Position numbers and translations under genes: made by a program. From Elusimicrobiota bacterium (lineage in GTDB: Bacteria; Elusimicrobiota; Elusimicrobia; JACQPE01), in NCBI GenBank assembly GCA_016180815.1, contig JACPAN010000016.1, positions 1 to 64,000 of the forward strand: 64,000 nt of DNA, written 5' to 3'. The notes under the pieces were generated by a model, which was not told where the DNA came from, ran no database searches, and was given only the letters and a program-made list of their open reading frames with translations. Position 1 is the first letter of the stretch, and each line of letters opens with the position of its first letter. Shown here in pieces: positions 4,433 through 33,684 of the stretch.

Positions 4433-4490
4433 ACCCCATGATTGTTCAATACGGTGAGCGATGGAACAATATTGTCCGCATAAAACCTGG

Positions 4491-4508
4491 ATGACAATCG
4501 CCTGACAG
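4491..4508 (-). promoter_or_regulatory. PhoB-type operator (Pho box) before the porin gene
   Basis: On the minus strand the sequence reads CTGTCAGGCGATTGTCAT. It holds two TGTCA half-sites exactly 11 bases apart, the period of the Escherichia coli Pho box (two 7-base CTGTCAT repeats separated by 4 bases). A TATGCG hexamer follows at about the distance of a -10 box in Pho promoters. The site is about 60 bases before the porin ATG at 4432, and phoR ends just upstream of it. Matching a consensus by eye is weak evidence, but the half-site quality, the spacing and the neighbours agree. Confidence 0.6.
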
Positions 4509-4547
4509 AAACCGGCGTTAAAACGCGATGAATGCAAAACGAACGAA

Positions 4548-5675
4548 TTATTTTTTTAAAGGAACGGTAAAGTGAAACATTGATCCGCGGCCGAGTTCGC
4601 TCATGACTCCGACTTGTCCGCCGTGCGCCTCGATAAGATGTTTAACGATGGAAAGACCGAGGCCGGTTCCACCAAGTTCCCGGGACCTGGCTTTATCCAC
4701 GCGGTAAAAACGCTCAAAAATTCGAGGCGCATCCTCTGTGGAAATACCTACGCCTGTATCCTGGATTTCGACCCGCCCCCACCCGTCTTGTTCATGGATT
4801 CGGATAGTTACACGCCCGCCGTCCAAATTATATTTGACGGCGTTATCCAAGAGATTAATCAGCACCTGGTCAAGCTGTTCCTTGTCCGCTCGCGCGCAAA
4901 TGCCGTTGTTTTCCGCCTCAACCCTTATGGTCACCTGACGCTTGGCCGCCAAGTTTCTCATCTTATCCGCCGCCTGTCTTGCGGCTTGGATCAAATCAAC
5001 ATACTCCCAGCGGGGTGAACGCTTCCCGGACTCGATAGCCTCAAGATCAAGCAAATCGTCAACCAAATGGCCCAGCCTGTCCGCGTCTTCCTTGATTGCT
5101 TGAACGAACTCCCCCCGGGGCCCGCGTTCTTCCAGGGCGCCGTCTAAAAGCGTTTCGGTCAAAGCCTTGATAGAAGCCAGAGGGGTGCGAAGTTCATGAG
5201 AAACGTTGGCGACAAAATCGCGGCGCATCTCTTCGAGCTGCCTCAGGCGCGTGATGTCTAGAAGAATCAGCAAGGCCCCCTCAACCTTGGCCTGCCTGAT
5301 CAAGGGCAACATGCTGGCTTCAAAAGCAAAATCGCCCGGGACAAATAAATGGATCTCCCGGCATTGCTTTCGTCCTTGCGCCAGAGCCAAACAAAGCATA
5401 TTGGTCAATATCGGATGACGAAACGCCTCCTCAAATGTTTGACCTAAAATATCGGAGCTGCTTTTTCTAAAAATTTTCAAAAAACCCGCATTGAAAGCGG
5501 CTATTTTATGGTCCCTGTCGACAACCAAGGCCGCGTCAGCCATAGCGGACAAAATAACCTCCGCCAGAGGCCCGTTCAACGAAAAATTTCCCTTCGAATT
5601 CTTGAAACGCCGCGCCAGGTTCATCGCCGCCGCTTTTATTGAAAGTTTACCGGAAGCTAAATCAGTGGAACTCAA
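4548..5675 (-). CDS. phoR: PhoR-like sensor histidine kinase without membrane segments
   Basis: A 375-residue histidine kinase. A PAS domain covers about residues 40-140, with VVDRDHKIAAFNAGF near its start. The HisKA helix follows, with the phospho-acceptor His160 in VSHELRTPLAS. The ATPase domain shows DNAVKYN, DTGVGI and GTGLGLSIVKHL. No transmembrane segment is visible, so it looks cytoplasmic, unlike the PhoR of E. coli. It would phosphorylate the PhoB protein encoded just upstream. The TTG at 5675 overlaps the phoB stop (TTGA), favouring coupled translation; the ATG at 5624 is the alternative. The phosphate role is inferred from the neighbours and the Pho-type site. Confidence 0.85.
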   Translation of the reverse strand: MSSTDLASGKLSIKAAAMNLARRFKNSKGNFSLNGPLAEVILSAMADAALVVDRDHKIAAFNAGFLKIFRKSSSDILGQTFEEAFRHPILTNMLCLALAQGRKQCREIHLFVPGDFAFEASMLPLIRQAKVEGALLILLDITRLRQLEEMRRDFVANVSHELRTPLASIKALTETLLDGALEERGPRGEFVQAIKEDADRLGHLVDDLLDLEAIESGKRSPRWEYVDLIQAARQAADKMRNLAAKRQVTIRVEAENNGICARADKEQLDQVLINLLDNAVKYNLDGGRVTIRIHEQDGWGRVEIQDTGVGISTEDAPRIFERFYRVDKARSRELGGTGLGLSIVKHLIEAHGGQVGVMSELGRGSMFHFTVPLKK

Positions 5676-8509: not shown

Positions 8510-9827
8510 CCCAATCCTTCCCCAAAAGACCGGGCAATGAGCCGCAAAGCCGCCGGTCCATACGGTCCAGCCACAGGGCCAAGCACGAGACCGGTCCCAC
8601 AACCCAGCGTTCGATCATTCCGTCCAGGAATCCGCGCTCGAGCGCGAACAAGTAGAGCTTGCGTCCGAAACCGGCCTGCGCAAAAGCGTCCGGCGAAGCA
8701 AAGCGGCCCCCCAGATCGTTTTCAAGCTCGTGGATGTCATGGAGAATATTCGGCGCGTTGAGAAATTGCAAAAGCCGATAAGAAGCGTTGCCGGCCATAT
8801 GGAGGAAAGCGAGGGTCTTCCAGCCGAACCCGATCTCGATGACGATGATCCCGACCTGAGTCAGCGACGCGAAGCAAAGGCGGGATTTGACATCCGTCTG
8901 CACTCGCGTGACAAGCGTGGCATAAACCGCCGTGCCCGCTCCGGCGGCCACGGCCATGACCCGCGCCGCGACGGAATGCTCCAGCAGCGAAGAGGCCCGC
9001 AAGAGCAGAAAACAGCCGGCGTGAATGGAGAGCGCCCCATAGTAAACGGCGCTTGATGGCGTGGGCCCTTCCATAGCGCGAGGCAGCCAAGTGGAAAAAG
9101 GAAGCAGCGCGCTTTTGGCCGCGGCGGCCCCGATCAGCAGCATGGCGATCACGCCGGCATGCTCCGGGCCGAGCTTTGCGGAAGCGGTTCCGGAAAACAA
9201 CATGCTCAGGCTGCCGCTGCCGGCCCAGTGATGCAGCAAGACGGCCGCGGAAAGCATGCAGGCGTCGCCGATCCTGTAGAAGGTCAAAACGCGCAATCCA
9301 TTCGCCACCGGCGACGGGCGCTCGTGGAAAAACGCCACCAAAAGCGCCGAACTCAACCCCAGGATTTCCCATCCCGCATAGAGAACCTCGATGCTGCCGG
9401 CCAGAGAAACCAGAAGAAGCCCGATGACGAAAGCGACCAGAAGCATGAAATACCTATGAAAACCGGGCTCCTGATGGAGGTATCGAAACGAAAACGCGGA
9501 CACGACGCCGCAGATCGTCACGGACAGAATCGCGAAGCCCAACGACCAGACGTCGATCAGCAAATCGAATGCAAAAATGCCGCCCGCGATCCATCCGCCG
9601 CCTAAGGACACGACGACGGACGGCCGGCCGGTGCGAATAAAAAGCAATGCCGCGGTCAGCAACGCGCCGAGGGATATCAGAAGCCCGGCCTGAATCAGCA
9701 TGCCGACCCGGTCTTCACGCCATGGACGCCCGACAAAAGAAAACGCCGCGATGATGAATAAAACCAGAGCCGGAACCCCGACGGCGGCCAAAATACCGGC
9801 TTCAAGCCAGGCAGCGGCGGAACTCAT
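8499..9827 (-). CDS. dabB: DabB-like proton channel subunit (NuoL family)
   Basis: A 442-residue membrane protein of the NuoL/ND5 type with about a dozen hydrophobic segments. Family motifs include YAGWEILGLSSALLVAFFHERPS, FSTWLPRAMEGPTPSSA and LHMAGNASYRLLQFL near the C-terminus, a tract seen in NuoL-like DAB subunits. In DAB complexes the DabB subunit is thought to couple proton flow to one-way hydration of CO2 by DabA. The ATG overlaps the dabA stop (ATGA), which implies coupled translation in a fixed ratio. It is somewhat shorter than typical DabB. The next gene encodes another protein of the same superfamily. Confidence 0.78.
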   Translation of the reverse strand: MSSAAAWLEAGILAAVGVPALVLFIIAAFSFVGRPWREDRVGMLIQAGLLISLGALLTAALLFIRTGRPSVVVSLGGGWIAGGIFAFDLLIDVWSLGFAILSVTICGVVSAFSFRYLHQEPGFHRYFMLLVAFVIGLLLVSLAGSIEVLYAGWEILGLSSALLVAFFHERPSPVANGLRVLTFYRIGDACMLSAAVLLHHWAGSGSLSMLFSGTASAKLGPEHAGVIAMLLIGAAAAKSALLPFSTWLPRAMEGPTPSSAVYYGALSIHAGCFLLLRASSLLEHSVAARVMAVAAGAGTAVYATLVTRVQTDVKSRLCFASLTQVGIIVIEIGFGWKTLAFLHMAGNASYRLLQFLNAPNILHDIHELENDLGGRFASPDAFAQAGFGRKLYLFALERGFLDGMIERWVVGPVSCLALWLDRMDRRLCGSLPGLLGKDWDGD

Positions 9828-32203: not shown

Positions 32204-32275
32204 TGTCCCCGCCAGGAATCGAACCTGGATAACAGGCTTAGAAGGCATGTGCTCTATCCATTGAGCTACGGGGAC
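32204..32275 (-). tRNA. tRNA-Arg (UCU)
   Basis: A 72-base tRNA with acceptor GTCCCCG/CGGGGAC, anticodon loop CTTCTAA (anticodon TCT) and T loop TTCGATT. CCA is not encoded. A 23-base part of its 5' half (32251-32273) recurs identically at 33660-33682, bounding the Bro-N/VOC genes. Confidence 0.95.
32251..32273 (-). repeat. 23-bp direct repeat inside tRNA-Arg (att-like)
   Basis: The minus strand reads CCCCGTAGCTCAATGGATAG followed by AGC, covering the acceptor end, D arm and D loop of tRNA-Arg. An identical copy in the same orientation lies at 33660-33682. The pair encloses 1.4 kb with two genes, as left by site-specific integration at a tRNA gene, although many tRNA genes share parts of this sequence. 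Confidence 0.55.
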
Positions 32276-32311
32276 GTAAATTTTTGTTTTCTATGGATAA
32301 CTTAATACTTT

Positions 32312-32707
32312 TCAGCTCCTTGCCGCAGCGCCTGCTCTCGCGAACGCTAACACATGGCCATCGGGATCAAGACAATACGCCGCCTCATGCCCCCAGTCGC
32401 GCTGCAGCAGCGGGCTCAACTCGCGTGCGCCATTTTCAATGGCGCGCCGATGGAAGAGTTCCGGCTCGTCAGATAGCAGATAAACTTCGGCGCGCGGGAT
32501 TGCCCTCCCAATCATTGGATCAGGAAGACGGTCGCCGATCAGCCGTTTTATTCCGGCAGCGGGCATTAGACCTAGGACGGCGCCGTCATTAAGATGAAAC
32601 TCGGTCATGCCCAGCACGTCGAGCTCGGGCTGCTTGCCTAGAACGGCCCCATAGAATTTACCGCTCGCTTTCTGGTCCGAAACATACAGTATAAAGTGCG
32701 CTTTCAT
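32312..32707 (-). CDS. VOC (glyoxalase/bleomycin-resistance) family protein
   Basis: A 131-residue single-unit VOC protein. The start ILYVSDQKASGKFYGAVLG and the end AAYCLDPDGHVLAFAR are hallmarks of the fold, which dimerises to bind a metal or a drug. The metal ligands are only partly kept: a Glu before F in MTEFHL and a Glu in AEVYLL may serve. Its ATG follows the Bro-N stop codon directly, with AAGAGG three bases before it, so the two are cotranscribed. It is annotated widely as a bleomycin-resistance-like or glyoxalase-like protein; the substrate is unknown. Confidence 0.82.
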   Translation of the reverse strand: MKAHFILYVSDQKASGKFYGAVLGKQPELDVLGMTEFHLNDGAVLGLMPAAGIKRLIGDRLPDPMIGRAIPRAEVYLLSDEPELFHRRAIENGARELSPLLQRDWGHEAAYCLDPDGHVLAFARAGAAARS

Positions 32708-33592
32708 TTACCTCTTGCTCCTTTTACGCCTCGTGCCGGTTTTCTGTGTCAGCTGCCTGACCTGCTTCGTTGATTGCGCGAGGGTGAGATGGTTCTCGCG
32801 AGTGACGACCTTTCGTCCGCTTTTCTTTTCCAGTTCGCGACGCGCATTGCCAGCCACCGTGCCTCCGGCGTTGGCCGCTTGTTTGTTTTGCGGGAAGCCC
32901 TGGGCATCGCGGTTGCGGGCGATCTCGGTCGTAGCGGCTTCGCCCAGCATCGAGAAAATCAGCTCGAGGTCGGTCATGTGGTCTCGGAGATTCTCGCGCC
33001 TGAGGCGTTTGAACTCAGCGTACTGGCTCGGTGTCAGGCCGAAGGCGGCTTTAGATATCTCGGCCGTGAGAATGGCGTACTCCCGGCGCTCTCTTACGCC
33101 GCGCTTCTTCCATTCATCGGTCAATTCGTCGCGAATGGCGATGGAGCGCATGCGTTTCTCAATCCAGTCATTAGAGTAGCCCTTGGCCTTGTACAGCGCG
33201 CGGGTGCGCTTCGTGGCAAGTTCGGGGTCCTCGATCTCCTGGATGCGCTCGTAGCCGACCTTGGCGAGCCAGCGCTTGAACGGCTCGGCCTTGGGGCTTG
33301 GAATCGATTGGATCAGGCGGAAGACTCCCTCGGTATTGGCGCAGAGCATCGCCTGCGGGCCCCCTACGGTCGGAATGGGAAGGGTATGTACAATCTGTAC
33401 CCACCCTTTCTGCAATTCGGGGTCGCGTTGTTTCATTCGCTGGATATATTGCTTTGCGTCGCGAGAATCGATCAATGCCAACACAACATCTTCCACGACG
33501 AACCACCATTCGTTGTTGTGGATGGCTCGGCGAACTTCTTTCCGCTGGAACAGGGCGATGCGGGTCTCGGGATTTTGATCGGAGGTGCTCAT
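32708..33592 (-). CDS. Bro-N domain protein (DinD/phage antirepressor-like)
   Basis: A 294-residue protein with an N-terminal Bro-N domain (about residues 10-110), recognised by RIALFQRKEVRRAIHNNEWWFVVEDVVLAL, by DSRDAKQYIQRMKQRD and by ANTEGVFRLIQSIPSPKAEPFKRWLA. Bro-N domains bind DNA in phage antirepressors and in DinD-type proteins. The C-terminal half is charged and helical, ends in RRKRSKR and resembles the DinD tail. The start is the ATG at 33592; a TTG lies five codons upstream. It belongs to a small island next to tRNA-Arg and its codon use differs from the neighbours. A link to SOS or mobile elements is likely but not shown. Confidence 0.8.
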   Translation of the reverse strand: MSTSDQNPETRIALFQRKEVRRAIHNNEWWFVVEDVVLALIDSRDAKQYIQRMKQRDPELQKGWVQIVHTLPIPTVGGPQAMLCANTEGVFRLIQSIPSPKAEPFKRWLAKVGYERIQEIEDPELATKRTRALYKAKGYSNDWIEKRMRSIAIRDELTDEWKKRGVRERREYAILTAEISKAAFGLTPSQYAEFKRLRRENLRDHMTDLELIFSMLGEAATTEIARNRDAQGFPQNKQAANAGGTVAGNARRELEKKSGRKVVTRENHLTLAQSTKQVRQLTQKTGTRRKRSKR

Positions 33593-33652
33593 AGTTGATT
33601 CAGCCAATGAAAATTATCTGTTTTTACTGCGTTTCTTTCCATCCGTAGCAGT

Positions 33653-33684
33653 TACAGGCGCTCTATCCATTGAGCTACGGGGGC
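33653..33684 (-). pseudogene. tRNA 5'-half remnant, att-like repeat
   Basis: On the minus strand GCCCCCGTAGCTCAATGGAT continues to AGAGCGCCTG and then departs from tRNA sequence: no anticodon arm or T arm follows. The 23 bases at 33660-33682 are identical to part of tRNA-Arg(UCU). It marks the far edge of the Bro-N/VOC island. It lies between the Bro-N start and the TolC-like gene; the remaining gap shows nothing else. Confidence 0.65.

Follow-up and report, generated by a model that had tools for sequence, protein, structure and literature searches.

The nearest described parallel to the locus treated here is the tRNA-dependent lysogeny of actinobacteriophages, for which Guerrero-Bustamante and Hatfull 2024 (PMC10865867) report tyrosine integrases, phage tRNA genes and a dependence that was shown; they also ask how frequent the phenomenon is outside the actinobacteriophages and mention the Lactobacillus prophage Lj965. 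Our subject is a small island beside a tRNA-Arg(TCT) gene of an Elusimicrobiota bacterium, located in a stretch of 64,000 nucleotides (contig JACPAN010000016.1 of assembly GCA_016180815.1, positions 1 to 64,000; hereafter the window), which we read as the integrase-less derivative of an element that very probably enters the D-arm of this tRNA by means of a large serine recombinase (LSR). Measured against that paper, such an element would follow the same logic as tRNA-dependent lysogeny, but it would differ in its serine integrase, its occurrence in Elusimicrobiota, its target in the D-arm and the position of its tRNA inside the integrase frame; host dependence is here proposed from sequence, and a weak tRNA-like form may exist at the right junction, attR. 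In place of the tyrosine integrase of a temperate phage we thus find a serine recombinase, and one relative (G247) carries conjugation-type genes as well.

A second parallel is offered by the suicidal (SSV-type) integrases, described in the review PMC8371274 as tyrosine recombinases that are cut into two pseudogene halves and are exclusive to archaea. Their attP lies inside the integrase gene, which integration alters, as may also be the case for the LSR element, whereas the LSR is a bacterial serine integrase that would lose its C-terminal tail only and is not divided into N- and C-terminal halves. In the integration-dependent immunity of mycobacteriophages, attP lies in the repressor gene. 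There, likewise, recombination restructures a phage gene at attP, the repressor in that case and the integrase in ours. This type of immunity is mentioned in PMC10865867. With regard to the enzyme itself, the LSRs SPbeta YokA, TP901-1 and phiC31, recovered as sequence matches from the Protein Data Bank (PDB), have the same Resolvase-Recombinase-Zn ribbon order, a short core and inverted-repeat arms; the Elusimicrobiota LSR differs by its identity of 25-33% to the other LSRs of its phylum, its tRNA D-arm target and its 3' end, which is fused to a tRNA. Among the open PMC papers that were listed, we met none on a serine integrase that holds a nested replacement tRNA or has attP within its gene, which is a weak sign of novelty.

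The left and right junctions

An intact tRNA-Arg(TCT) gene with a normal D-loop lies at 32204..32275 on the minus strand, where it forms the right boundary of the island, and it is the single match to the tRNA-Arg(TCT) pattern in its genome (G000; 2.85 Mb in 39 contigs, the window being on contig C16). As the initial annotation had stated, 23 of its bases recur exactly and in direct orientation on the far side of two genes, Bro-N and VOC (32251-32273 and 33660-33682), and this is the sole exact same-strand repeat of at least 23 nt within the window. It was also right that the 5' half is repeated rather than the 3' half: the repeat spans the acceptor strand and the D-arm, and the locus does not have the 3'-end repeat of a classical tRNA island. 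The far copy, at 33660..33684 on the minus strand (GCCCCCGTAGCTCAATGGATAGAGC), is read by sequence comparison as the host side of the left junction, attL; its last six nucleotides, TAGAGC (33660-33665), are the core that is common with attR of relatives. The adjoining 33643..33659 (minus strand, GCCTGTAACTGCTACGG) would form the element side, a conserved attP right arm that is the inverted repeat of the left arm at the attR of relatives.

The proposal of a mobile island at tRNA-Arg is supported, and the chimera recurs in other genomes. In searches of 294 Elusimicrobiota genomes for attL and the LSR C-terminus, and of 340 for the full-length LSR and attR, a tRNA-Arg(TCT) 5' half fused to the conserved arm GCCTGTAACTGCTACG was found at 17 sites in 10 of the 294 when up to three mismatches were allowed, against 0 for the reversed control. 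Window bases 33659-33643, next to the half tRNA, are conserved in other genomes, and the same arm (GCCTGYAACTGCTRCG) follows the half tRNA both in the window's genome and in that of L027, an Elusimicrobia locus which at 92% identity is the closest among the best 80 Bro-N relatives and which has the order half tRNA, Bro-N, half tRNA, Gp49/RelE-like plus helix-turn-helix (HTH) pair, LSR remains, tRNA-Arg(TCT). A tRNA-Arg(TCT) shares the contig of attL in five of the ten genomes (G000, its class-mate G024, G235, G265 and G276), always 1.4-4.1 kb downstream on the same strand; it lies on a contig other than that of attL in G247, G257, G297 and G279, and in G178 it is seen as a cut 3' part only; three hits of the tRNA-Arg(TCT) pattern that are not tRNA (L147, L148 and L160) were left out. 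The initial annotation would have been contradicted by a repeat that belonged to a second full tRNA gene; this is not so, for ARAGORN reports no tRNA at any of the attL sites from the phylum search.

Several genomes hold more than one such junction. G257 and G297 have four to five attL copies each, two of them on one contig in G297, which suggests stacked or duplicated cassettes, and two attL stand in tandem in G024. Such copies lie at L136:5071 and 8014 and on the G257 contigs C35, C40, C46 and C56, and several share a promoter-like upstream stretch. Two contigs of G279, C33 and C42 (L169, L140), have in common a flank of ~100 nt and the 5' half up to the anticodon stem, and then diverge, one into attL and the other into an intact tRNA; this pair possibly represents an empty and an occupied site in one population, or a direct repeat. 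Within the window's own family no empty site was recognized by synteny, the tRNA-Arg of G001 having other neighbours. The arm had no hit in viral_contigs.

The right junction is seen in G247, G257, G297 and G373, where 28-34 nt separate the complete tRNA-Arg(TCT) behind the LSR from an arm (such as CGTAGCCAAGTTACAGGCGC); beyond this arm come the core, TAGAGC, and the 3' part of a further tRNA-Arg(TCT). The attR arm pattern occurs in 5 of the 340 genomes (these four and G178), each of which also has the LSR or attL. This arm repeats that of attL in inverted orientation, the shared run being reached by 5-20 of 20,000 shuffles per genome, and in G247 the same arm variant, CTATGCG, is present at both attL and attR, on separate contigs. 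A short core between inverted-repeat arms is the arrangement of LSR attachment sites, with attP here reconstructed from attL and attR. When attL and attR halves were joined, ARAGORN recognized a regular tRNA-Arg(TCT) in four of four genomes (G247, G257, G297, G178), while it found no tRNA in any of the five attR right halves alone; there were eight joins, seven in one set plus one, and they used two of the five attL of G297, the others being outside the script's pattern or found elsewhere. The regularity of the joined tRNAs argues that integration splits the host gene in the D-arm, attB thus overlapping the host tRNA gene in these relatives, and the reconstruction as a whole indicates that the complete tRNA next to the LSR belongs to the element. 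G247, G257 and G297 have no match to the tRNA-Arg(TCT) pattern other than this complete tRNA, consistent with dependence on it.

The recombinase frame and its tRNA

Elements with an integrase at this tRNA, which the initial annotation suggested looking for in relatives, do exist. With the LSR C-terminus as query, matches were obtained in 4 of the 294 genomes (G024, G247, G257, G297), all of them within the ten attL genomes (hypergeometric 7e-7, uncorrected for relatedness). The full-length query (E 1e-25) matched 24 of the 340, of which five are close (G247 itself, G373 at 80%, G024 at 71%, G297 at 70% and G257 at 67%) and the rest 25-33% identical. The G247 protein (L143) has the Resolvase, Recombinase and Zn ribbon domains of an LSR; in G024 the N-terminal part is largely missing, and in G257 and G297 the gene is cut by contig ends. 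In five of five LSR genomes the gene abuts tRNA-Arg(TCT) on the same strand, with its frame entering the tRNA. The window's genome has no match to this LSR family at either threshold (E 1e-6 for the C-terminus, E 1e-25 for the full length), in line with the original statement that no integrase is present. The LSR and attP gave no hits in viral_contigs, nor did the tail peptide in plasmids, and in the phylum of an Omnitrophota locus (L067) LSR matches were limited to 2 of 285 genomes (E 1e-30) at 27-32% identity. A structure model of the LSR was poor (pLDDT 63, from 5 sequences, with residues 450-545 low) and was not used.

Upstream of the LSR, the G247 contig carries a TraG/TraC-like gene (E 2e-35) at a distance of 5-9 kb, with weaker TrbL- and TraL-like matches, below the Pfam cut-offs, in the same stretch. 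With these conjugation-type genes, the element in its complete form may be of the integrative conjugative kind; its left end is absent from the LSR contig. In three genomes a Gp49/RelE-like plus HTH pair precedes the LSR (L141 ~4450-5180, L200 ~8628-9382, L199 ~397-1151; by Pfam for L141 only and by eye for the other two), likely a toxin-antitoxin module of the full element.

The tRNAs behind the LSR stay open in the LSR frame in 5 of 5 cases, for 43-70 codons, whereas all 21 other tRNA rows close within 4-9 codons, 19 of them at the anticodon-loop TAA. This test comprised 31 loci, five of which (G021, G014, G070b, G028, G017) were dropped by a T-loop filter, and 5 versus 21 overstates independence because G010 contributes a single gene as two rows and G257 is near-identical to G297. 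The frame owes its passage through the nested tRNA to one extra C in the D-loop, inserted at two different places (GGATCAGAGC, GGATAGCAGC). Between tRNA and arm, the linker codons of three lineages differ largely synonymously (V as GTT/GTG/GTC, P as CCT/CCA, L as CTA/TTG), and purifying selection acts on the 30 codons that begin with ARLFNEK, ahead of the tRNA (for example, 3.0 of 69.2 non-synonymous sites have changed, versus 11.0 of 20.8 synonymous ones). Rows for the core, which lacked a codon alignment, were left out of this comparison.

On the other side, at attL, the window has an 18-codon frame at 33614..33670 on the minus strand (MDRAPVTATDGKKRSKNR and a stop) which, judging from L199-L202, we read as the severed C-terminal tail of the LSR and not as a stand-alone gene. 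Such tails end after 16-18 codons at 12 of the 17 attL sites. Among the 12 of 15 distinct tails that were compared (L108 and L109 were left out for an early stop and L112 for a shift), the proposed frame is free of stops over 16 codons, against 9 and 8 stops in the two alternative frames. The LSR frame is open through both the tRNA and the left arm, and attP may lie inside the integrase gene, but an uncut attP was not found.

Proposed mechanism and its difficulties

We consider it highly probable that the 23-nt repeat is the attL of an integrative element that enters the tRNA-Arg(TCT) D-arm via an LSR, and that the window holds an integrase-less derivative of it. The sequences show attL as the host tRNA 5' half, the core TAGAGC and the element arm, and attR in the relatives as an inverted arm copy, TAGAGC and the host tRNA 3' half; they also show a split host tRNA and, next to attR, a complete tRNA-Arg(TCT) directly behind the LSR gene and in frame with it. 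According to the model, in the circular form the LSR frame would continue across attP into the basic tail that is now found at attL, and attP probably lies within the LSR gene. Integration would then swap the C-terminus of the integrase from ..VTGARAPVTAT plus the basic tail to ..VTGARASAF, the new stop being the UAA in the host anticodon loop. Thereafter the host would depend on the tRNA of the element, and the promoter of the severed host tRNA could drive the cargo.

More tentatively, and as a real possibility rather than as our firm expectation, we propose that one frame unites the LSR, a complete functional tRNA-Arg(TCT) and attP, so that a single recombination would destroy the host tRNA and substitute the nested copy for it (host addiction), give the integrase a short end, closed by the host anticodon-loop UAA, in place of its basic tail (which would act as a sensor of integration or an off-switch), and leave the host promoter facing the element. 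In processing the nested tRNA, RNase P could also cut the integrase mRNA, and units that have their own tRNA but no LSR could stack at the site like cassettes. As for the promoter, -10-like boxes precede many attL copies (by eye), and in G000, G024, G265 and G276 the cargo begins a short way past attL, on its strand.

From its attL (33643-33684), the window continues with the tail, Bro-N, VOC and the intact tRNA-Arg(TCT), a plan that it shares with G235, G265 and G276. Its intact tRNA would be either the element-borne substitute or a recombinant of that copy with the host 3' half; a U-C mismatch in the anticodon stem (CAUGC/GCCUG, read by eye) is perhaps a sign of such a hybrid.

A number of observations weigh against this account. 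The window itself has no LSR, attR or altered D-loop, and its history is for that reason read from the relatives; five of the attL genomes combine an intact tRNA with the absence of attR, and this demands an extra step; and position 2 of the half tRNA (C) is unpaired with the window tRNA (T2-A71). In none of the genomes, all of which are drafts, do attL and attR lie on one contig, an uncut attP was not found (none in viral_contigs, and the five pattern hits in the phylum all continue as attR), and G373 has attR with no attL found (its genome is 77% complete). Of the attL tails outside the 16-18 codon range, four run on for longer and that of G235 meets a stop after 2 codons, and the pN/pS of the tail is 0.67 versus 1.07 and 0.63 in the other frames, by which the proposed frame is not singled out. 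Turning to the promoter, the first open reading frames (ORFs) inside attL are on the opposite strand in G257 (C40) and G297 (second site), and no consensus promoter precedes the half tRNA of the window; because of these two points we offer promoter capture as a suggestion only.

The right junction raises a difficulty of its own, for when it is scanned together with the arm, ARAGORN makes tRNA-like calls across attR in 4 of 5 genomes. That of G373 is called tRNA-Arg(tct) with three poor acceptor pairs, that of G178 tRNA-Arg(cct) with a poor anticodon stem, and those of G257 and G297 an unassigned gene with a four-base anticodon (tccg); the attR of G247 receives no call. The acceptor-like CCCCGTAGCC starts the arm in G257, G297 and G178, as if it mimicked the tRNA 5' half. 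It is thus possible that a tRNA is partly rebuilt at attR, although by eye these forms, with extra bases between the D-stem and the anticodon stem, look non-functional. The calls are located at L199 ~4243, L201 ~1201 and in L208.

If the model is true, tRNA-dependent integration reaches beyond phages with tyrosine integrases and includes a serine integrase from a phylum that is known chiefly through metagenomes, and there is a bacterial counterpart to the self-altering integrases that the review PMC8371274 calls exclusive to archaea. The element would also represent a case of a tRNA gene kept within a protein-coding frame, supply a test system for the control of direction by the C-terminal tail of an integrase, and explain 5'-half tRNA repeats that searches for repeats of tRNA 3' ends would miss.

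Cargo genes and alternative readings

Between the two copies of the repeat lie the genes that the initial annotation had named, a Bro-N domain protein at 32708..33592 (minus strand; E 3.3e-14) and a VOC (glyoxalase-like) protein at 32312..32707 (minus strand; E 8.1e-7), which abut stop-to-start. In our judgement the ATG at 33592 is better placed as the Bro-N start than the TTG at 33607. The codon use ascribed to both genes deviates for VOC, the fourth most atypical of 56 mechanically chosen window ORFs, but not for Bro-N, which ranks 27th and has a G+C share at third codon positions (GC3) of 0.73, like its neighbours. Relatives of Bro-N are common and conserved across phyla (at least 565 confirmed of at least 575 matched stretches); within the window's family, to which G003 also belongs, Bro-N occurs in two of four genomes, the window's own included.

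An improbable alternative is that Bro-N and VOC function together as an operon in defence, the SOS response or drug response, and that the island serves to transfer them jointly, as the pairing suggested in the initial annotation would have it. The two genes do abut on one strand, and Bro-N belongs to the PDC-S13 / phrog_15286 family: it matches the candidate-defence profile PDC-S13 along practically its full length (E 2.8e-111, residues 14-288 of 299), this being a defence candidate by name only, and the name was not found in the open PMC library searched. Its predicted structure (pLDDT 76.7) aligns with DdrC of Deinococcus at Z 13.3 over 214 residues, the next row outside DdrC being at Z 8.2. 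DdrC is a DNA-damage response protein. The alignment with DdrC of Deinococcus radiodurans (PDB 7udi, 8u0g, 7qvb) extends over both domains, but at 12% identity and with an rmsd of 11-14 angstrom, since the arrangement of the domains differs; a role in DNA damage is thus possible for Bro-N alone, a common predicted fold being no proof of function. The pairing itself finds no support in relatives. No VOC relative was detected (tblastn, E 1e-6) in the best 80 Bro-N loci, which are 67-92% identical and many of which are cut by contig ends, and in G024 it is Bro-N that occupies the unit between the two attL sites. The att-bounded cargo, taken from attL to the next boundary or contig end, moreover differs among relatives: a haem peroxidase (KatG by look) in G276, a KaiC ATPase with CheB in G265, a histidine-kinase-type ATPase in G178, an SNF2 helicase in G235, TetR with EamA in G297, a major facilitator superfamily (MFS) protein in G257, and Bro-N in G000 and G024. 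The cargo is probably incidental to the element, and Bro-N most likely has an accessory role as a protein that binds DNA and is related to damage or phage. The idea that mobility is carried by Bro-N was also rejected, the arm being present in 0 of the 45 genomes with Bro-N relatives that account for 45 of the 80 loci, and short, weak matches to flavivirus NS5 in a PDB sequence search with Bro-N were taken as chance.

It is very improbable that the chimera is a stand-alone transcribed element, i.e. a tRNA-derived leader with a promoter for a short basic peptide or a small RNA. The -10-like boxes, the frames that end at 16-18 codons at most sites, the presence of up to five copies per genome and the fact that, among 17 fetched stretches, a tRNA is nearby solely in that of the window would suit such an element, but the same frame continues the LSR in the reconstructed attP, the copies accompany the LSR or tRNA-Arg wherever contigs allow, and the RNA folds no better than shuffles (z 0.33). 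A micro-ORF or small RNA of this kind was dropped once tRNA-Arg and the LSR had been found beside the chimera.

Still harder to maintain is the view that the 5' half is a second tRNA-Arg that arose by tandem duplication and decayed, Bro-N and VOC having arrived through unrelated recombination. Tandem duplication may occur, since G010 has two tRNA-Arg(TCT) pattern matches on one contig, and in the window the 3' half is simply missing; decay, however, would not produce one and the same fusion point between half tRNA and arm in 10 genomes from several families, and this view is largely contradicted by the reconstruction of attL and attR, with its matching right junction. Least probable of all is that the island is of the conventional tRNA type, made by a tyrosine integrase which used the 5' end and has since been lost, as might be imagined from the Bro-N of L034, which sits between tyrosine-integrase-3'-end-like repeats beside a tRNA-Arg(CCT). 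The arm pattern has no match in G305, the genome to which L034 belongs, and in the five cases found it is an LSR gene that abuts tRNA-Arg(TCT), in searches none of which was aimed at tyrosine integrases; an isolated att remnant of such a lost integrase was likewise considered and dropped.

Beyond the LSR element, Bro-N shows other associations. In 8 of the 80 loci (L055, L059, L061, L062, L082, L089, L091, L100; seven Omnitrophota/Omnitrophica and one Falkowbacteria) a tRNA-Ser or tRNA-Leu of the same strand precedes the start of the gene by ~8-91 nt, several of the loci sharing a linker like ATTGACGCTCAGGCGAACCCTGG, and Bro-N may make use of tRNA promoters in further ways. At L034, direct repeats at 1639-1682 and 2584-2627 that resemble the 3' end of a tyrosine integrase gene enclose Bro-N, and this one-gene unit, inserted at an integrase end, adjoins the tRNA-Arg(CCT). 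Finally, in the desulfobacterial or Geobacter-like loci L064, L068, L069, L070 and L077, the frames upstream of Bro-N resemble CRISPR-associated ends (Cas6-/Cas4-like, by eye).

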